The translations under genes were made by a program, and so were the position numbers. A model generated the notes under the pieces. The model did not search any database, was not told the origin of the DNA, and saw only the letters and a program-made list of their open reading frames with translations. 39,240 nucleotides of DNA from Bacillota bacterium. GTDB lineage: Bacteria; Bacillota; Clostridia; Christensenellales; Pumilibacteraceae. Below are positions 2,989 to 29,063 of this stretch, one piece after another (position 1 is the first letter of the stretch; each line of letters begins with the position of its first letter). Where the stretch lies: contig WQVM01000006.1 of the NCBI GenBank assembly GCA_009783985.1, positions 1 through 39,240 on the forward strand, read 5' to 3'.

Positions 2989-5985
2989 ATGCCAAAAAAA
3001 ATTATCAAAAAAAATACATATAGTGCGGCGTTAGACTGTCTAATAGAAGAAATCAAGGCTAACAAGCATAAGGTAGGGGCGGGGTTAGACACTCGCCATA
3101 TTGTTATTGTGCCGGACAAGTATACTATGGCGGTCGAAAGACGGTTGTTAGGAGACGGTGCAGGGGCAACTTTTGATATTGAGGTGGTGACTCTCAATAG
3201 ACTTTTTGGATTACTATGGGATGGCGACGAACAATATTTGAGCAAACAAGGTGCATTATTGTACTTAAAAAAAGCTACCGAGAAAGTTAAGGACAAGCTG
3301 GTTTTTTTTGGACGGAGTATCAAGTACGCAGGTTTTTTTGCAAAAATGTATGAGATAATCACGCAGTTGCAAGCCAATAAAATTGAGCCTACAGATTTGG
3401 TTGCAGCTACTCAAAAAGCAGTCGGGGCAGCAAAATTCAAGTTTGGAGATATAGGACTGATTTATGGAGCGTATCAGGAGCTGACCTTAGGTCGTTTTAT
3501 TGATGCGGGAGGGCGGCTCAAATTGTTAGAAAAAATTGTGCGGAAACATATTTACTTTGATAACACATATGTGTATGTCGCCAATTTTGATGTATTTACA
3601 AAGCGGGCAAGAGGTATAATTGATATTCTTGCCGAGCGGACAAATGTAACGGTCTATAGCACAGAAGACAAGGCACTAACAGCTACTTGTCTGCCGCCCA
3701 CAACGCTATACAACGCAAAAGACAGTGTTGACGAACTCAAAGAAATAGCAAAACGCATAAGATACCTTGTATCGTACGGAATGCGTTACAAAGATATGGC
3801 TCTTGTTAGGACTAATATCAACGCAGGACAAATCAAGAGAATATTCGGGGAGTTTGATATTCCGTACTATGCCGACGCTAAGATAGATTTGGCTAGACAC
3901 CCCTTGGGAGTATTTTTGCTTGCGGTTCTTGATTTTATTAGTGCATCGGGGCTAAAAGAAGCGACAGCCGTTATTAGGAGTCAATACTTTTTTGAGCTAA
4001 CAGACAAAAAGATTGACAATAGAGAGATTGATTCTTTTGTAACTGCTTGCATTGCTAATTCTGTGGATTATGGGGATTTCGAAAAACCGTGGACAATTAT
4101 AGAAACGCCCCACTTAGCTGAGTATGAGAGTGTGCGACAGGCACTTATAAGTCTTATAGCAAAATTACCTGGCGGTACAGCGACGGCATCGGAATGGTCT
4201 AATAAACTAGCCGAGCTAATCAGCAATGCTGACGATACTACAGTTGCCTTAGGTCATAGGGCAGGGGTTGACTACAAGGCAGTAACTAACAAGGTGCGTC
4301 AAAGTATCGCACTTGCAGGTGAGTTATATTCGGACGAGAATATGAGAGCGACTGAGTTTGGCGAGGTGCTAAAGCTACTTTTGTCAGGGGCAGAGGTTTC
4401 GCCGCTTTCGCCGTCTGCTGACTGCGTGATTGTTGGTGGTCCTGAGATTTTTCGCGGTACACCGTACAAAGCAATGTTTGTTTCGGGCTTTAATGAAGGA
4501 GTGTTACCTAATACGCTTACCGACAGCGGAATCATAACCGATGACGAGATAGACGGACTTGGACTAGCAGGCTTATCAATTGAGCCAAAAGTCAAAGAGG
4601 TCAACGATAGAGCAAAAACAGAACTCAAGCAACTTTTGATGTGCGGACACGATAGGTTGTTTTTGTCGTGGACAAGCGTTCTTGCAGACGGCACCGAGGG
4701 CAGAAAACCACAGATGTTAGAAGTGCTAGAGCAGACCCACCAAATCACTCAAATCAATCCCGATGAGATAGGGGGCATAACTCTGCAAGGTAAGGATTTA
4801 AGAGACCACGCAGCTGAGTTAGCATATATGGCATCGGCAAGAAAAAACTGCGAGAGAGAGCTTATTGCGTATGTCGGCGGGGCAAAAAGTCCTTTGGGCG
4901 TGCCTTATTACGACGCAATATATTCGGCTTTGTCTAAGAAAAATACTTTTAATCCATACAAATACATTGCCCAAAATGCTGACCTTGATTATCGCTTGTT
5001 TAACGCAGATAAAATGTTTTTTTCTTACCGCCGAACAAAGGTATCACAGTTAGAGAGTTATTTTTCTTGTCCGTATTTGCATTTTGCCGAGTATGGATTA
5101 AGGCTAAAAGAGCGAAAAACAGGCGGAGTTTTGCCTGTTGATGTAGGTAATATCTTGCACGAAGCTATAGACAAGTGGCTAGGCTTAGATGACTTTGACG
5201 ATGTGCCAAAGCAGACTGCTAAGATAATTGACCAAATCCTTGCAGAGCGACCAAAAAGCTTTGTAGAGGCTAATGAGGGGCTTTTATGCCGTCTCAAAAA
5301 AGAATGTATAAGGATAGCCGAAATTATAACATTCCAAATCAAAAACACCAAGTTTGTCAATTTAGGACGGGAAATGGAGTTTAAGTATGGATGCGGTGAC
5401 CTTGAGTTTGTCGGAAAAATTGACAGGGTAGATGAGTATGACAAATCTGTCAGAATAATTGACTACAAGTCAGGTAAAATTGAACTAAAAGCGTCAGACC
5501 TCTATTACGGAAAAAAACTACAGTTGTTTATATATATGTACGCACTAATGGGCGAGGGGTATTATCCTGCTGGTGTATTTTATTTTCCTTTTAAGGACGA
5601 GTTTGGGGATAAGAGCGATGATTATCGTATGGTAGGTGTGTATGCTAGAGAATATGCGACAGCACACGATATAGGATTAGAGCAAGAGAATTTTGATAGT
5701 ACAATAATCAAGGCAGGAACTAAGTCTGCCCAAAAAGGCAAGGTAGAACTACACGGGAACAAAAGCCGTTCGGCACTTGATATCGGTACTTTGCGTTTGT
5801 TATGTGATTATGCGTCCAAAATCTCACAAATCGCCGTCAAAGAAATCTCAAGCGGTAATATCACCCCCTCACCATACAAAGGAGTATGTGAGTACTGCAA
5901 GTGTGGTGACATATGTCAGGTAAAGGATAAGGTCACTCAACGAGGCGGAGGAAAGATAACTTGGAAAGGAATAAAAAACAATTAG
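2989..5985 (+). CDS. addB: ATP-dependent helicase/nuclease subunit B (AddB)
   Basis: 998 aa; C-terminal RecB-like nuclease (RIIDYKSGKIELKASDLYYGKKLQLFIYMYAL) and Fe-S cysteines (YFSCPYLHFAEYGL ... CEYCKCGDIC); precedes addA. Confidence 0.92.
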   Translation: MPKKIIKKNTYSAALDCLIEEIKANKHKVGAGLDTRHIVIVPDKYTMAVERRLLGDGAGATFDIEVVTLNRLFGLLWDGDEQYLSKQGALLYLKKATEKVKDKLVFFGRSIKYAGFFAKMYEIITQLQANKIEPTDLVAATQKAVGAAKFKFGDIGLIYGAYQELTLGRFIDAGGRLKLLEKIVRKHIYFDNTYVYVANFDVFTKRARGIIDILAERTNVTVYSTEDKALTATCLPPTTLYNAKDSVDELKEIAKRIRYLVSYGMRYKDMALVRTNINAGQIKRIFGEFDIPYYADAKIDLARHPLGVFLLAVLDFISASGLKEATAVIRSQYFFELTDKKIDNREIDSFVTACIANSVDYGDFEKPWTIIETPHLAEYESVRQALISLIAKLPGGTATASEWSNKLAELISNADDTTVALGHRAGVDYKAVTNKVRQSIALAGELYSDENMRATEFGEVLKLLLSGAEVSPLSPSADCVIVGGPEIFRGTPYKAMFVSGFNEGVLPNTLTDSGIITDDEIDGLGLAGLSIEPKVKEVNDRAKTELKQLLMCGHDRLFLSWTSVLADGTEGRKPQMLEVLEQTHQITQINPDEIGGITLQGKDLRDHAAELAYMASARKNCERELIAYVGGAKSPLGVPYYDAIYSALSKKNTFNPYKYIAQNADLDYRLFNADKMFFSYRRTKVSQLESYFSCPYLHFAEYGLRLKERKTGGVLPVDVGNILHEAIDKWLGLDDFDDVPKQTAKIIDQILAERPKSFVEANEGLLCRLKKECIRIAEIITFQIKNTKFVNLGREMEFKYGCGDLEFVGKIDRVDEYDKSVRIIDYKSGKIELKASDLYYGKKLQLFIYMYALMGEGYYPAGVFYFPFKDEFGDKSDDYRMVGVYAREYATAHDIGLEQENFDSTIIKAGTKSAQKGKVELHGNKSRSALDIGTLRLLCDYASKISQIAVKEISSGNITPSPYKGVCEYCKCGDICQVKDKVTQRGGGKITWKGIKNN

Positions 5986-10666: not shown

Positions 10667-11191
10667 TTGTTCGGTGCTTTGGTGGACCTAAACACTGTGA
10701 GAAGAAAGATTGTATCAACAATTTCTATCGTTGCTATGATGATGGCATCCTTTTTTTTGGTCGGATGTGTCCGCAATTTTTCATTTAGTTACAGTTATGA
10801 TGATTTGCGCCAAAATCTTATTGAGGTGCAAATCATCTATATCGAAGAGCGAGCGGAGGTTTTTGCAATTCATTCGCACTTAGACCTAACGGAAGAATGT
10901 TTTGATTATGAATTAAGACGGAGTTTTGCTGGGGATGAAATGAGCGCAATCATTAAGGTGCTTGCAGGTATAGAATTTACTTATTCACAGCTAATTGTGC
11001 CTATGTCTGTATCAAGTATATTTCATATTCAAGGTTATGTGCTAAAGTTGCGATATGCAGATGATTCTTTTATTATGGTTGCTCAACAAGCGGATTATAG
11101 ATATGGGAAAAGTCGTTTTAGCCAAATTAGAACAGGGCGAAGAGTTAGTGATGAGATATGGCTTGACTTTATATCTATTTTTATTGATTGA
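10667..11191 (+). CDS. Hypothetical lipoprotein
   Basis: N-terminal hydrophobic segment and lipobox-like FFLVGCVRN; start codon uncertain. Confidence 0.5.
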   Translation: MFGALVDLNTVRRKIVSTISIVAMMMASFFLVGCVRNFSFSYSYDDLRQNLIEVQIIYIEERAEVFAIHSHLDLTEECFDYELRRSFAGDEMSAIIKVLAGIEFTYSQLIVPMSVSSIFHIQGYVLKLRYADDSFIMVAQQADYRYGKSRFSQIRTGRRVSDEIWLDFISIFID

Positions 11192-11346: not shown

Positions 11347-12321
11347 ATGGAAAAATATCTTTATAAAGATTTGGAGTTTCGGACTTGTGGGGGATCGGGG
11401 CTTAGGTTGCCTATAGTGTCGCTTGGGTTGTGGAATAATTTTTCATTTGAGGATAGTTTTGACAATATTAAGGCGATGTTGCATACGGCTTTTGACTTGG
11501 GGATTACGCATTTTGATTTGGCTAACAATTATGGACCGCCACCGGGGTCTGCTGAGACTAATTTTGGGCGGGCGCTTAGTGACGGCTTGGGTGTCTACCG
11601 TGACCAAATGATAGTATCCTCTAAGGCAGGGTACGGAATGTGGGAAGGTCCTTACGGGGACGGGGGCAGCCGCAAATATCTTATATCGAGTATTGACCAG
11701 TCACTCAAAAGAACAGGGTTAGAGTATTTTGACATATTCTATCACCATAGATTTGACCCTAATACACCTATGGAGGAGACGGCACTTGCGCTTGACCAAA
11801 TAGTCAAATCAGGCAAGGCTCTCTATGTAGGTGTCAGTAATTATAACGGAGAGCAACTTGTCAAAATGCACGGGTTGCTTAGTGACTTAAAGACACCCTT
11901 TATTATCAGTCAACCGTCATATTCTATCGCAAATCGCTGGATAGAGGAAAACGGCGCGTTAAGCGAAGCCAAAAAATTAGGTTTGGGGACTATCGTATTC
12001 AGTCCGCTTGCACAAGGCTTGCTTACAAGCAGGTATCTCAAAGGTGTTCCAAAAGATTCTAGAGCGGGTAAAAAGCGTTGGGGTATGGATAGCAGAGTAA
12101 ATGCCGATTCTATATCTAAAGTCAAAGAACTTAACGAAATCGCTAGTGACAGAGGTCAAACTTTGGCTCAAATGGCTCTTAGCTGGGTAATTAAAAATGA
12201 TTCTGTGACATCGGTTCTAATCGGTGCAAGTAGCCCTAAACAAATTAAAGAAAACATCAAACTTAATCCTATTTTTAGCAAAGAAGAATTAGATGCCATA
12301 GACAAAATTAGACTTATTTGA
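11347..12321 (+). CDS. Aldo/keto reductase, YghZ/L-glyceraldehyde-3-phosphate reductase-like
   Basis: GLRLPIVSLGLWNNF, GITHFDLANNYGPPPGSAE NFGR, GGSRKYLISSIDQSLKRTGLEYFDIFYHHRFDPNTPMEET, GKALYVGVSNY, QMALSWVIKNDSVTSVLIGAS closely resemble YghZ. Confidence 0.9.
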   Translation: MEKYLYKDLEFRTCGGSGLRLPIVSLGLWNNFSFEDSFDNIKAMLHTAFDLGITHFDLANNYGPPPGSAETNFGRALSDGLGVYRDQMIVSSKAGYGMWEGPYGDGGSRKYLISSIDQSLKRTGLEYFDIFYHHRFDPNTPMEETALALDQIVKSGKALYVGVSNYNGEQLVKMHGLLSDLKTPFIISQPSYSIANRWIEENGALSEAKKLGLGTIVFSPLAQGLLTSRYLKGVPKDSRAGKKRWGMDSRVNADSISKVKELNEIASDRGQTLAQMALSWVIKNDSVTSVLIGASSPKQIKENIKLNPIFSKEELDAIDKIRLI

Positions 12322-21509: not shown

Positions 21510-23077
21510 TTAGAGTTTCAAGAAAGCGCTTAAAACAGCAAAAAAACCGCTAAAATTAGCGGTTTTTTGGTAGACATTAACACATGAAATCCAATCCGTA
21601 TTAGTATTGTCTATCGCTTGACCCTCATAATCTGCGACATCTTCGAGCATTTTCTCATGTTCGACTGGGTCATCGTTGTTTATGACATTGTAGTACAGTA
21701 CGAGCTTATCGTCAAAGATAAAAATAGCGTTGACAAAAATTTTGATAATTCGGCGCCGATATTCGAAGTCTTTTATATCGCCTTTGGCAAATAACTCAAT
21801 CCATTGCAATATGTCCTCTTTGGTGTGACTGATAGAGTTTGCGAGCTTCAGCTTTGTAAGCTCTTTTTGGTTATCCGCTTTTTGTAACTCAAGGTCTTTA
21901 GCTTTTTGGTCTAGTCGCTTGAGTAGCTCCACGCTATAAACTTGCAATAGCATTGCCGTACACTTGTCAAATTCGCTTTCGATTCGGGCAATAGTCCGCT
22001 CATACTCCTTGATACGCTTGGCGGTTATTGAGTTGCCGTACATCTCAAGCACACTGTCCGCAATCTTGTCGGATTCTTCCGCTCTAAGGACATACTTAAG
22101 TGTCTGCTCGATAACATACTGCTCAAGGTAGTTTTTCTTTTCGTACCGCTTATTGCAAGTCTTATACTTGTATTGCTTGGAGCAAACATAATAGCAATGT
22201 TTTATCCCTAGCTTGCTTGTGCCGCTAACTCCTATCAGCTTAGATCCGCAATGACCGCAATAAGCCTTGCCGTGTAATATATATTCCTCTTTGGCTTTGC
22301 CCGATGCAGGGGACTGTCGCTTTAACGCTAATTGCTTTTGCACTCGTTCAAATGTTGCCGTATTGATTATCGGGGGATAGTGGAGCTTAATGCCGTCAAC
22401 ATAACACTCACCGATATATTTCGGATTGCTTAAGGTATTCCAAAAGCTATTGATAGTAAACTTTTTGCCCCTATTAGTTGTCAAGCCTCTTGCGTTAAGC
22501 TCCGCTACAATATCCTTTTTGCTTTTTCCATCTGCATAGTCCCTAAATACTTTCCGTATTATATCGGCTTTAGGCTCGTAATCTCGATACGCTTATCTAC
22601 CGACTTATAGCCGTACAACATACTACCGCCCAAATGATTACCCTTTAGCAAACTCTCTTTTTGCCCTCGTTTGACTTTTTGGCTTAAGTCGTGGCTGTAC
22701 ATCTCCGCCATTATCTCAAGTATACCCTCAACAAGCCGCCCCTCTGCGGTATCACTAATTGCCTCTGTCGCTGATACAACCTTAACGCCCGATTGACTTA
22801 ACTTATGCTTATAAAAAACGCTGTCATATTGATTACGGGCGAATCTATCGACTTTGTAGACTATGATATAATCAAATTGCTTTTGGCTAGCATCTTTGAC
22901 CATTTGCAAAAAGTCCGGACGCTCGGCATTTGTCCCGGTCATCGCACGGTCAATGTATTCGTGTATGACGGTGTAGCCGCTCCGCTCGGCAAACTCCTTA
23001 CATACCCTAAGTTGTCCCTCGATACTTTGCTCCGTCTGTGCTGACGAGCTGTACCTTGCGTATATTACTGCATTCAT
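21510..23077 (-). pseudogene. Large serine recombinase split by a frameshift (N-part 22559-23077, C-part 21510-22484 plus in-frame upstream extension)
   Basis: N-part MNAVIYARYSSSAQTEQSIEGQLRVC...YKVDRFARN; C-part TTNRGKKFTINSFWNTLSNPKYIGE..., zinc ribbon CGHCGSKL...C...C. Frame continuity EPKADIIRKVFRDYADGKSKKDIVAELNARGLTTNRGK is in another frame upstream of the annotated C-part. Confidence 0.85.
21540..21568 (-). terminator. Terminator-like hairpin inside the recombinase 3' end
   Basis: AAAAAACCGCTAAaaTTAGCGGTTTTTT. Confidence 0.65.
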
Positions 23078-23844
23078 TTGTTTTTTGAGTAATCTTCTTC
23101 TATGTCCGAAATGGCATCAACCAATGCTCTAGCAATATTAAACTCTAAATAGCTATCTTTCCATGCGTGCTTATTATAAGTTTGTTTTACAAGTTGAAAA
23201 TTCTCATTTCTTGATAATCGTTGTTTTAGATAATACTTTTTGGAGCATTCGGGAATGTTTCCTTGATTAATTGAGCATATTACATCATTAAATTGATTTT
23301 CAACTTCAGTATAAAGTTTCGTTTGTGTGAAATCATAGAGATTTTTTGCTATACTATCTTTTCTTGCGATGGCGCAATCTTGGCTAACATCAAAAAAATG
23401 TTGCATTTGAGTATCTCCCCAGTAAGCCATAGCACAATATACAGGAGTAGGGATTAAAATAGTTGCGGCACATAGTCTTGCTTCAATTTCAAAGTTATAA
23501 TAAGTTTCTTTATCTAACTCTTTAACTAAAAAATGTTTTAGGATATAATGACTTAATTCTTCAGCAATAGTAAATCTTATTCTTGCATCAGGCTTTAAGT
23601 CATTGTATCCAATACAAAAATCAAAATTTTGTTTTTCATCTACATACCATGTCAAAGCCCCGTCCTTATTATTCCACATATCAAATACTTGCTTGTCTGC
23701 AAAGTTTCTTTTAAGTTCTGAAAGAGGAAGGACTTTTAATTCTAAATCCTTGCAAATTTGAAATACATCTACTGGAATAGTTGATATTTCTTGGGCAAGT
23801 AAAAAATTATAGGCAATTTCTGTTATCTGTTTATAAGTTTTCAT
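23074..23844 (-). CDS. ImmA/IrrE-family (M78) protein, variant active-site motif
   Basis: RIRFTIAEELSHYILKH followed by EIEARLCAATILIP; partner of adjacent XRE gene. Start set to MKTYKQIT (track start 23880). Confidence 0.8.
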   Translation of the reverse strand: MKTYKQITEIAYNFLLAQEISTIPVDVFQICKDLELKVLPLSELKRNFADKQVFDMWNNKDGALTWYVDEKQNFDFCIGYNDLKPDARIRFTIAEELSHYILKHFLVKELDKETYYNFEIEARLCAATILIPTPVYCAMAYWGDTQMQHFFDVSQDCAIARKDSIAKNLYDFTQTKLYTEVENQFNDVICSINQGNIPECSKKYYLKQRLSRNENFQLVKQTYNKHAWKDSYLEFNIARALVDAISDIEEDYSKNK

Positions 23845-24169
23845 TATCCTTTGAAAAATTAGGAAATGCTTCTTTGGCATACTTAAGTAATGTTTCTTGC
23901 TCTGTTTGGGTTAAATTTTTTGCACCTCGTGCAATCATAGAAAAATAAGGGGATATATCATCTCTTTGGGGTGAGTAGTATTTCAGAAAAATATCAATAT
24001 CAACTTGCAGTGCTTTCGCAATTTTGATTAAAGTTTCAAGCTCTGGGTAAACGGCATCTTGTTCTATTCTAGATATGGTTGCGTTGCTAATATCACATTT
24101 TAAGGATAGGGCTCTTTGACTCAATCCTTTTTTCTCTCGTAATTCTTTAATTTTCTCGCCAATAGTCAT
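23831..24169 (-). CDS. XRE-family HTH repressor
   Basis: MTIGEKIKELREKKGLSQRALSLKCDISNATISRIEQDAVYPELETLIKIAKAL. Confidence 0.9.
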   Translation of the reverse strand: MTIGEKIKELREKKGLSQRALSLKCDISNATISRIEQDAVYPELETLIKIAKALQVDIDIFLKYYSPQRDDISPYFSMIARGAKNLTQTEQETLLKYAKEAFPNFSKDNENL

Positions 24170-24205
24170 TGTAATTTCCTTTTTTTAATTTAATTATACC
24201 ATATA

Positions 24206-24309
24206 TGTTACTTAAATGCAACAATGTAAAAGGTTTTTTTAAATTTGCATATAAAAAGTGTTGCATTCGTGGCACAAATATGATATTATGATGTTACATT
24301 CCCGTAACA
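24206..24309. promoter_or_regulatory. Three operator-like dyads TGTTRC-N6-GYAACA in the divergent XRE/small-HTH intergenic region
   Basis: 24206 TGTTACttaaatGCAACA; 24259 TGTTGCattcgtGGCACA; 24292 TGTTACattcccGTAACA. Confidence 0.75.
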
Positions 24310-24319
24310 GAGGTTATAT

Positions 24320-24538
24320 ATGAAAATTATTTTGAAAAATGGTAGTCTATTTGCTTTGCAGGGATTTATGACTGAGCAAGAGTTTGCAAACAAACTTGGA
24401 GTAAGTCGTGAGCAACTTTGGCGAATAAAAAAACGCAAATCCTTTGTAGGAAAAAATTTTGTTTCTAAATTTAAGAACGCTTTTCCAAATGAGAATTTAG
24501 ATAATTATTTTTCCTTTGTAGATGTTGAGGATGGCTAG
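24320..24538 (+). CDS. Small HTH-like protein (Cro/excisionase-like position)
   Basis: 72 aa; MTEQEFANKLGVSREQLWRIKK HTH-like segment; divergent from repressor. Confidence 0.6.
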   Translation: MKIILKNGSLFALQGFMTEQEFANKLGVSREQLWRIKKRKSFVGKNFVSKFKNAFPNENLDNYFSFVDVEDG

Positions 24539-24958: not shown

Positions 24959-25264
24959 ATGAGAAAGGGACGAATTGTGCCAGTGTCTGAAGTTGAGAAG
25001 GCTCAAAAAAAGGCTACAGAAGCAAAAAACAAACTCGATTTGCAAAACGCAATAACAAGTGTCTTAACCCACGATTGGCAAGCACATCGAGATGTACATC
25101 TTGCACTAAACAAAATTTTAGATAGGGATTTGGAGTATATAACGCTTAGCGACGCATTGGCAAGATATAGCGATACGGTTAATCGCATCGAGTTCAAAAG
25201 AGAAAAAGCAGGCGCATACTCCAGTCAAGAAAAAATCTATATCAGACTTAAAGGAGTTAATTAA
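24959..25264 (+). CDS. Hypothetical element protein
   Basis: 101 aa; SD agagag; tightly linked to next ORF. Confidence 0.55.
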   Translation: MRKGRIVPVSEVEKAQKKATEAKNKLDLQNAITSVLTHDWQAHRDVHLALNKILDRDLEYITLSDALARYSDTVNRIEFKREKAGAYSSQEKIYIRLKGVN

Positions 25265-25727: not shown

Positions 25728-25774
25728 TAATGCGGTGTGTGTAGTCCAGACGTCTGGACAAAGGAGCTGCAGTT

Positions 25775-26709: not shown

Positions 26710-27678
26710 ATGGCAACATCGAAAAAATATTACTGGATAAAGTTAAAAGACAGCTTAATGACCGGAGACGCATTTGACTTTCTTATGAGTAAAGATAATG
26801 GCTCGGATTATGTTGTTATATATCTCTTGCTTTGTCTAAAGACAGTAAATACATCCGGCAAGCTCGAGGGTAAGGTTGGTGAGGTTATTGTCCCGTTTAC
26901 GCCCGCTAAAGTTCAGCGTGATTTGAAATATTTTCATATTGATACGATTTTAGTCGCATTTGAGTTGTATAAATCTCTAGGACTTATTTACAAAGATAAT
27001 GACGGCACTTTGCAAATAACGGATTATGAGGGTCTTGTCGGTTATGAAACTGGTAAAGCGGAGTTAATGCGCAAATTAAGAAAAAAACGCGCTGAAAGTG
27101 GTAACAAAACGGTAACATTGTTACCAAAATCTAGTAACAATGTTACGGAAGAGAATAGAGATAAGAGTATAGATATATTTATATCTAAAGATATAAATAA
27201 TACTGGCTCAAATCAAGATTTGAGCAGAGAGTGTATTAATTCCGAATATGTCAAAAAGAGTTTTGACGAGTTCTTTATCCTGTATCCTCGTAAGCACGGC
27301 AAGTCAGAGGCATACAAGGCGTACTTTAAATTATTTTCTAAGCTCAGAACAGAGCAAGAGATTATTACATTGGCAAGCAATATACTTGCCGGACTTAAAA
27401 TTATGGTCAATGAGTGTAACCGCACAAAGACCGAAACAAAATACATCAAGCTCCCGTCTAACTGGTTATATGAGGAGCGTTGGCTCGACCAATACGAGCC
27501 TGCAGGAGTTGCTGCCTCTGATGTGCCTATAAACCCGCTCACCGGAGAGCCGTACGACAAATTTGATTGCGCTATGCCTACCCCGCATGAGCTTGAACAT
27601 TGTTCATATCCTCAACCGCTTGCCGATTATATCAAAAATACTTACGGCGTAACGGTTAAAATAACGGGAGGCGAATAA
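26710..27678 (+). CDS. Phage replisome organizer-like protein (N-terminal Phage_rep_org_N-like domain)
   Basis: KKYYWIKLKDSLMTGDAFDFL...GSDYVVIYLLLCLKTVNTSGKLEGKVGEVIVPFTPAKVQRDLKYFHIDTILVAFELYKSLGLIY...EGLVGYE. Confidence 0.8.
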   Translation: MATSKKYYWIKLKDSLMTGDAFDFLMSKDNGSDYVVIYLLLCLKTVNTSGKLEGKVGEVIVPFTPAKVQRDLKYFHIDTILVAFELYKSLGLIYKDNDGTLQITDYEGLVGYETGKAELMRKLRKKRAESGNKTVTLLPKSSNNVTEENRDKSIDIFISKDINNTGSNQDLSRECINSEYVKKSFDEFFILYPRKHGKSEAYKAYFKLFSKLRTEQEIITLASNILAGLKIMVNECNRTKTETKYIKLPSNWLYEERWLDQYEPAGVAASDVPINPLTGEPYDKFDCAMPTPHELEHCSYPQPLADYIKNTYGVTVKITGGE

Positions 27679-28100
27679 TGAAAAGATTAAGCGAAATCAT
27701 TGGCGGCTTTTGGTCTAAAAGACCCGACTTACAAGAAATTGAGCAACGCATGGCTAACCTAAGCCAGTTAGAGAGCGTCAACTTTTGTAAACAACAAGCT
27801 ATCGAAGAGGCAAGCGCAAGAAACGAAAAACCGCCGGACGGTGTCTTTGGCGGTAAAGAGTGTACTGTTTGCAAAATGAAACGAGTTGTTTATTATGTAC
27901 ATCAACATCCTGTAGCAGGTGCAGCATGTGCTAGATTATTCCCGATATATGACAAGCCGTGTATTTGCGTTATGCAATACTACGTCAAAGACGATTACGG
28001 CAACTATAGGCGCAAGCCAAAACATGAAGTGCCTACATGGTTAGGTGGTAACTTTAAAATAATTCCAGATGTCTGTAATAAACACATGCCGCGCGGCTAG
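27678..28100 (+). CDS. Hypothetical replication-module protein with Cys cluster (possible Zn binding)
   Basis: 140 aa; CTVCKMKR ... CARLFPIYDKPCICVMQYY ... CNKH. Confidence 0.55.
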   Translation: MKRLSEIIGGFWSKRPDLQEIEQRMANLSQLESVNFCKQQAIEEASARNEKPPDGVFGGKECTVCKMKRVVYYVHQHPVAGAACARLFPIYDKPCICVMQYYVKDDYGNYRRKPKHEVPTWLGGNFKIIPDVCNKHMPRG

Positions 28101-28200
28101 CCGCGCCAGTCCCACCAGTGGGACTAAACTACAAATGTGCCATGTAATACAGCGTGGCATAGAGGACAGCATATTGATTATTTTGCATATTTGCGTCTTT

Positions 28201-28273
28201 GCCTATGTAGTACCTATACAGGTATGCGGGGGTGCGTAGCGCCTCCTCATACCTGTATAGGTACTACATAGGC
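28201..28273. repeat. Perfect 26-bp inverted repeat, 21-nt centre
   Basis: GCCTATGTAGTACCTATACAGGTATG (28201-28226) ... CATACCTGTATAGGTACTACATAGGC (28248-28273), exact reverse complements. Confidence 0.95.
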
Positions 28274-28279
28274 TAGGCG

Positions 28280-28350
28280 AATTTAAAATTGTTCTATAAA
28301 GAATAATTTTGTTCTAAAATTGTTCTAAATAAATCATAAATAAACAAAAA
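28280..28350. other. Origin-like AT-rich tract with three TTGTTCTA direct repeats
   Basis: TTGTTCTA at 28289, 28309, 28320 (spacing 20 and 11 nt) in a very AT-rich stretch adjacent to large hairpins. Confidence 0.5.
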
Positions 28351-28353
28351 AGC

Positions 28354-28402
28354 CAATCTAAAAAAATTTTGAGCAAGCGTACGCGTCAAAATTTTTAGAT
28401 TG
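28354..28402. repeat. Long near-perfect hairpin
   Basis: CAATCTAAAAAAATTTTGA gcaaGCGTACGCg TCAAAATTTTTAGATTG. Confidence 0.85.
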
Positions 28403-28517
28403 CTTTGACTGTTATCAGCAATAAGAATAATGCGAAGCATTATGAAAAAAGCACAGTGCGCCACAAAAATACAAGGTCAGTCCCACCGGTGGGACTGCCG
28501 CTCCGGGAGAATTAAAA

Positions 28518-28856
28518 ATGAAATTCGAATATAAAAACAATCCAATAATAGCCGGTTATATAACCGATGTAATCGAGCTTAAGTATGACAAGAACAAAAA
28601 GCCGTATTGCTATTTTGACATCAAGGTCAAAAGACTAGATTTGAAAGTAGGCACGGAATATGAGTTCTTTGACATAAGACTTAATGACGATGCCGCCGTT
28701 GACTTTGTAAACTGTGGAGCAAAAGCCGGATGGGGGCTTGAGGTGCTTAGAGGAGTGTTAAGACGCACCAAAAAAGACAGTACCGGCAAACGCCACGAAT
28801 ATATCAAAGCCTTTCAGGTTAAGGTATTCCCGCCCGAAACTGCAAAAGCTGAATAA
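28518..28856 (+). CDS. SSB-like OB-fold protein
   Basis: IAGYITDVIELKYDKNKKPYCYFDIKVKR...YEFFDIRLNDDAAVDFVNCGAKAGWGLEVLRGVLRRTKKDSTGKRHEYIKAFQVKVFPP fits the SSB strand pattern. Confidence 0.6.
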   Translation: MKFEYKNNPIIAGYITDVIELKYDKNKKPYCYFDIKVKRLDLKVGTEYEFFDIRLNDDAAVDFVNCGAKAGWGLEVLRGVLRRTKKDSTGKRHEYIKAFQVKVFPPETAKAE

Positions 28857-28878
28857 GCATTCCAGACGTCTGGAATAC

Positions 28879-28906
28879 AAAAAAGTCCCACCGGTGGGAC
28901 TTTTTT
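28879..28906. terminator. Perfect 28-bp palindrome, bidirectional terminator-like
   Basis: AAAAAAGTCCCACCGGTGGGACTTTTTT. Confidence 0.85.
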
Positions 28907-28986: not shown

Positions 28987-29063
28987 TGGTAGGACTGAGT
29001 GGACTCGAACCACCGACCCCCACCTTATCAGGGTGGTGCTCTAACCAGCTGAGCTACAGTCCT
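28987..29063 (-). tRNA. tRNA-Ile (anticodon GAT), CCA encoded
   Basis: Minus strand AGGACTGTAGCTCAGCTGGTTAGAGCACCACCCTGATAAGGGTGGGGGTCGGTGGTTCGAGTCCACTCAGTCCTACCA. Confidence 0.97.

Follow-up and report, generated by a model that had tools for sequence, protein, structure and literature searches.

The window, a 39,240-nucleotide (39-kb) stretch of contig WQVM01000006.1 from a Bacillota bacterium of the family Pumilibacteraceae, carries an element of approximately 7.4 kb at about 21.5–28.95 kb, flanked by the der–plsY side on the left and by a tRNA-Ile gene and further chromosomal genes on the right. Its genes code for a serine recombinase that is read in two frames, for an ImmA/IrrE-like protease, helix-turn-helix (HTH) regulators, small open reading frames (ORFs), a replication gene (rep), a frame referred to here as ORF140 and an SSB-like gene (ssb); no capsid, packaging or conjugation genes were recognised among its genes. 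The reading that suits it best is that of a temperate-phage-like element, probably degenerate, of which this is the early region. The subject of interest here is a set of short palindromes at gene borders in its distal part, which comprises the following features.

25744–25759: palindrome B1, GTCCAGACGTCTGGAC, adjoining on the upstream side the ribosome-binding site (RBS) aaaggag of ORF 25775
27678–28100, + strand: ORF140, whose TAG stop codon lies inside palindrome C
28091–28106: palindrome C, GCGCGGCTAGCCGCGC, including that stop codon
28108–28125: palindrome A1, AGTCCCACCAGTGGGACT, without a T-tract and with a mismatched central pair (C/A)
28201–28273: near-perfect 35-bp stem with a 3-nt loop in the ssb leader, a candidate RNase III substrate
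28478–28497: palindrome A2, CAGTCCCACCGGTGGGACTG, separated by a few bases from the downstream RBS gggag of the ssb-like gene
28518–28856, + strand: SSB-like protein (PF00436, E=0.0013, 19.2 bits, under the 26-bit cut-off)
28859–28876: palindrome B2, ATTCCAGACGTCTGGAAT, immediately past the ssb stop codon
28879–28906: palindrome A3, AAAAAAGTCCCACCGGTGGGACTTTTTT, predicted bidirectional intrinsic terminator for ssb (+) and tRNA-Ile (−)
28987–29063, − strand: tRNA-Ile(GAT), a host gene converging on A3 (Rfam RF00005)

Two palindrome families restricted to the element

The palindromes are all present at the coordinates given in the original prediction. Family A, AGTCCCACC(A/G)GTGGGACT, has three copies, starting at 28108, 28479 and 28884; in the form GTCCCACYRGTGGGAC, these three exact copies in the window compare with 0.14 expected at three or fewer mismatches. 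Family B, TCCAGACGTCTGGA, has two exact copies, starting at 25745 and 28861, and a form with two mismatches at 28064, within ORF140, which is not significant alone (three matches versus 0.82 expected). The window contains five loop-less palindromes whose arms reach 8 bp or more, and all five fall inside 25.7–28.9 kb; a first-order Markov sequence as long as the window gives about one overall. The copies of families A and B are wholly non-coding, in an element of which non-coding DNA makes up 13%. To this extent, the description of the palindromes as intergenic is correct; it fails for palindrome C, which holds the ORF140 stop. The outer bases of the arms differ between copies yet still pair, being G–C in B1 and T–A in B2, and C–G in A2 and A–T in A3, so that pairing or symmetry has been preserved beyond the identical core.

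The host assembly (1.6 Mb in 110 contigs, 88% complete) contains no copy of either family outside the element, and in an order sample of 396 genomes that includes the host, none of the other 395 has family A. In viral contigs, family A gave 6 matches compared with 14 for a permuted control palindrome. In genome contigs, totalling 264 billion bases, it gave 21, where chance predicts approximately 15 for an 18-mer of random sequence that has two ambiguous positions. Several of these 21 contigs hold neighbouring near-copies, with no visible context in common with the element. For family B, one viral contig matches ATTCCAGACGTCTGGAAT. Because copies are lacking in the host and the order, and matches in viral and genome contigs are at the level of chance, we conclude that the family A sequence is private to the element and is repeated inside it. 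The palindromes are, as anticipated, element-restricted rather than equally frequent in the host chromosome.

Probable RNA hairpins at gene and transcript ends

Palindrome A3 has a GC stem flanked by A6 and T6, with 12 predicted base pairs including the A/U extension, a U-tract on both strands and a z-score of about −5. A GC-rich stem-loop followed by a U-tract is thus found at 28879–28906 on both strands; it is found at none of A1, A2, B1, B2 and C. The anatomy is clear, and A3 is assigned from it as a bidirectional intrinsic terminator common to ssb and the convergent tRNA-Ile gene. It resembles other terminators of this type between convergent genes, but differs in that its stem recurs twice nearby without U-tracts. 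Of the suggestion that the palindromes are processing or terminator structures, the terminator part stands for A3 and falls for the other copies, which have no U-tracts.

Tandem folding is predicted for B2 and A3 at the 3′ end of ssb and for C and A1 at the end of ORF140. ORF140 and ssb are separated by a 417-nt spacer, and the segment 28080–28530 folds at z=−15 relative to shuffles, mainly via the 35-bp stem (−67.8 kcal/mol for 28195–28279; z=−11). Each arm of this inverted repeat holds TACCTATACAGGTA or its complement, itself almost palindromic. The arm sequence TAGTACCTATACAGGTA occurs in 12 viral contigs, with one match apiece. The spacer DNA has no relative among the phages and plasmids searched, and within the genome both it and the 35-bp inverted repeat occur once. 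An Rfam scan returned the tRNA alone above cut-off, with weak matches to hairpin families below theirs. The host encodes RNase III.

We put at roughly 0.5 the probability that the palindromes are RNA hairpins located where transcripts and genes of this degraded, temperate-phage-like element end. In such a scheme, A3 would end two transcripts, that of the element's early operon and, on the opposite strand, that of tRNA-Ile. A2, B1 and the C–A1 pair would belong to the same sequence families but would not terminate transcription; these hairpins probably protect or delimit segments of mRNA. Cleavage in the 35-bp stem would free an ssb mRNA that carries A2 as a leader hairpin and B2 and A3 at its 3′ end. 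The families themselves may have arisen via the copying of short palindromes inside the element. The position of the copies, at gene ends or just ahead of RBSs, argues for gene-end hairpins, as does a related element (L082) that has a duplicated hairpin with a T-run at gene ends (10845 and 12001). Four points weigh against them. A U-tract is missing from A1, A2, B1 and C; taken alone, A2 (z=−1.7) and B1 (z=−0.8) fold no better than many shuffles; hairpin function by itself needs no 14–18 identical bases across copies; and the palindromes' own stems of 7–10 bp are too short for RNase III. If the palindromes are gene-end hairpins only, they represent a tidy and ordinary case of small mobile elements insulating and stabilising their transcripts.

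Possible operators or cassette borders, and known repeat systems

The identity of the cores raises the question of whether it is the DNA that is recognised. Perfect dyads with identical cores of 14–18 bp, limited to an element that encodes at least two HTH proteins (23831 and 24320), could be operators for its dimeric proteins, spread over the operons in the manner of stoperators and silencing the early genes; B1 and A2 do lie just upstream of RBSs. We consider this unlikely. Neither palindrome occurs, even at three mismatches, in the divergent repressor promoter region at 24170–24320, where a CI-type site is expected; that region contains a different inverted pair, ATGCAACA/TGTTGCAT. Moreover, scoring of the + strand returned no promoter-like site next to A2 or B1, and one copy is a complete terminator. 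Binding by an element-encoded dimer, as originally proposed, gained no ground, with no candidate protein linked to the sites. The resemblance of AGACGTCT to the MetJ box of E. coli was discounted, the boxes here being single and not tandem.

Comparison with known repeat systems reveals partial likenesses. The stoperators of mycobacteriophage L5 are asymmetric 13-mer repressor sites, present at more than 20 per genome, promoters included (PMC9283540). The palindromes are likewise short, repeated and placed in narrow gaps between the genes of a temperate element, but they are symmetric, number two or three copies and, as described above, are missing from 24170–24320. According to PMC12699233, citing Pope 2011, the extended start-associated sequences (ESAS) of cluster K mycobacteriophages are imperfect 17-nt inverted repeats with a spacer, located near GGGATAGGAGCCC. 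They share with the palindromes a location near gene starts and repetition along a temperate phage genome; by contrast, the palindromes are loop-less, 14–20 bp long, few in number and found at gene ends too, and no GGGATAGGAGCCC motif was seen at the starts of ORF 25775 or ssb. REP/REPIN sequences are extragenic repeated palindromes with hundreds of copies genome-wide and a RAYT transposase nearby (PMC3116915). The families described here are also extragenic repeated palindromes, but with only three and two copies, all in the element. Two Y1 transposase genes lie elsewhere in the genome (C13 and C65), and neither palindrome is found there. In T4-type phages, Arbiol in 2010 reportedly described mobile regulatory cassettes that carry an early promoter, with hairpins at module borders proposed to aid shuffling; in the element, where sigma-70-like sites alone were scored, there is none beside A1, A2 or B1 on the + strand.

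The palindromes could alternatively be recombination joints, short common sequences at which cassettes such as the ssb block swap or insert; this, too, is an unlikely reading. As had been noted, A2 and A3 bracket ssb, and B1 and B2 bracket the block from ORF 25775 through ssb. However, since each copy reads identically on both strands, any two of them will bracket what lies between. A parallel is provided by L082, the rep of which is 45% identical and which comes from the same order. Its terminator-like hairpin, GTACAGACGTC...GACGTCTGTAC, spans 32 nt before the T-run and occurs exactly twice in that genome, at 10845–10876 and 12001–12032, around three small genes (DUF3990, an unnamed ORF and DUF3791). 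The first copy sits where a primase-like frame breaks off, and a relative of that frame extends far beyond this point. The duplicated hairpin of L082 has the core CAGACGTCTG in common with family B.

Related rep genes were compared at 14 loci, most of which are without repeated hairpins. L083 has an identical terminator-like hairpin, AAAAAGCAGGCCATAAAGACCTGCTTTTT, at 4286–4314 and 4428–4456, 142 bp apart, and L090 displays a weak sharing. No relative with a missing or swapped ssb was found, and the rep relatives other than L082 have no such bracketing arrangement. We regard the idea that the palindromes are module boundaries for recombination as doubtful; L082 keeps it alive at low probability. 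Less probable again is the broader proposal that the small temperate elements of the order carry multi-copy, element-specific palindromic terminator hairpins that delimit exchangeable cassettes, with a copy per module supplying homology for swapping. Were it true, as L082 hints, such hairpins would give a sequence handle on module swapping by phage-like elements.

A likely replication origin and the remaining genes

The other annotated features of the element are as follows.

21510–23077, − strand: large serine recombinase in two frames (Pfam PF00239, PF07508, PF13408)
23074–23880, − strand: ImmA/IrrE-like metallopeptidase (Pfam PF06114)
23831–24169, − strand: Cro/CI-type HTH repressor (Pfam PF01381)
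26710–27678, + strand: rep, a replisome organiser (Phage_rep_org_N/DnaD-like; PF09681, E=1.1e-6; phrog_5968, E=2e-27)
27101–27240: GTAACA half-sites and, after them, an AT-rich stretch; the likely origin, within rep

The GTAACA half-sites, at 27101, 27112, 27119, 27134 and 27141, make up two 13-bp palindromes 22 bp apart. Related rep genes (L013–L016, L082 and L083) have different repeats in the same place: GCGAAC/GTTCGC in steps of 11 bp for L082, GTTACA for L083 and GGACAC for L015; L013 and L014 have one palindrome, GGACAATGTCC. The level of repeats was reached by 1 of 200 shuffles for the window and for L015 and by 0 of 200 for L082 and L083; by the same measure, L013 and L014 show no excess over shuffles. 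The oriL of SPP1 is located inside gene 38 (PMC6316719), and the arrangement typical of it, iterons and AT-rich DNA inside the organiser gene, is seen at 27101–27146 and in L015, L082 and L083. Since in-gene repeats recur in relatives and oriL is likewise in-gene, the origin is, on sequence grounds, most likely inside rep. In-gene iterons that differ among related rep genes make this a directly testable origin.

The original prediction had instead described the palindrome region as origin-like. The hairpin-rich spacer at 28091–28497, lying between rep/ORF140 and the ssb-like gene, has strong and dense hairpins, the 35-bp inverted repeat and AT-rich DNA, and might therefore be a replication structure of the element (an origin or a single-strand initiation site) with SSB encoded next to it. 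It has no iterons, however, and no similar DNA was found elsewhere, whereas rep contains iterons with a palindrome, and AT-rich DNA, in the window, L082, L083 and L015, just as gene 38 of SPP1 contains oriL (PMC6316719). The origin-like label is thus unsupported, and a replicative role for the spacer seems to us very improbable.

The closest rep proteins found are those of Faecalibacterium phages (44–49% identity in the N-terminal domain) and of an uncultivated viral contig (47%). For the element as a whole, no close relative was found. No relatives of ORF140 were found when sought, and none that was credible for the SSB-like protein in 74 genomes of the family, approximately 400 genomes of the phylum, phages, plasmids and viral contigs. 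Two SSB-like matches at E=7e-4 were set aside; the one inspected (L042) sits among unrelated regulator genes. The single-sequence structure model of the SSB-like protein is weak (pLDDT 56) and insufficient for a fold search. In a search for the empty insertion site, no tRNA-Ile was found next to plsY in the 11 relatives examined, and the ends of the element are approximate for this reason.

The two recombinase frames carry the resolvase domain (22559–23077) and the recombinase and Zn-ribbon domains (21510–22484), a split that suggests either a decayed (frameshifted) integrase or an assembly error. A small ORF at 24959–25264 gives a very weak relaxase-domain match (E=0.05, under the cut-off).
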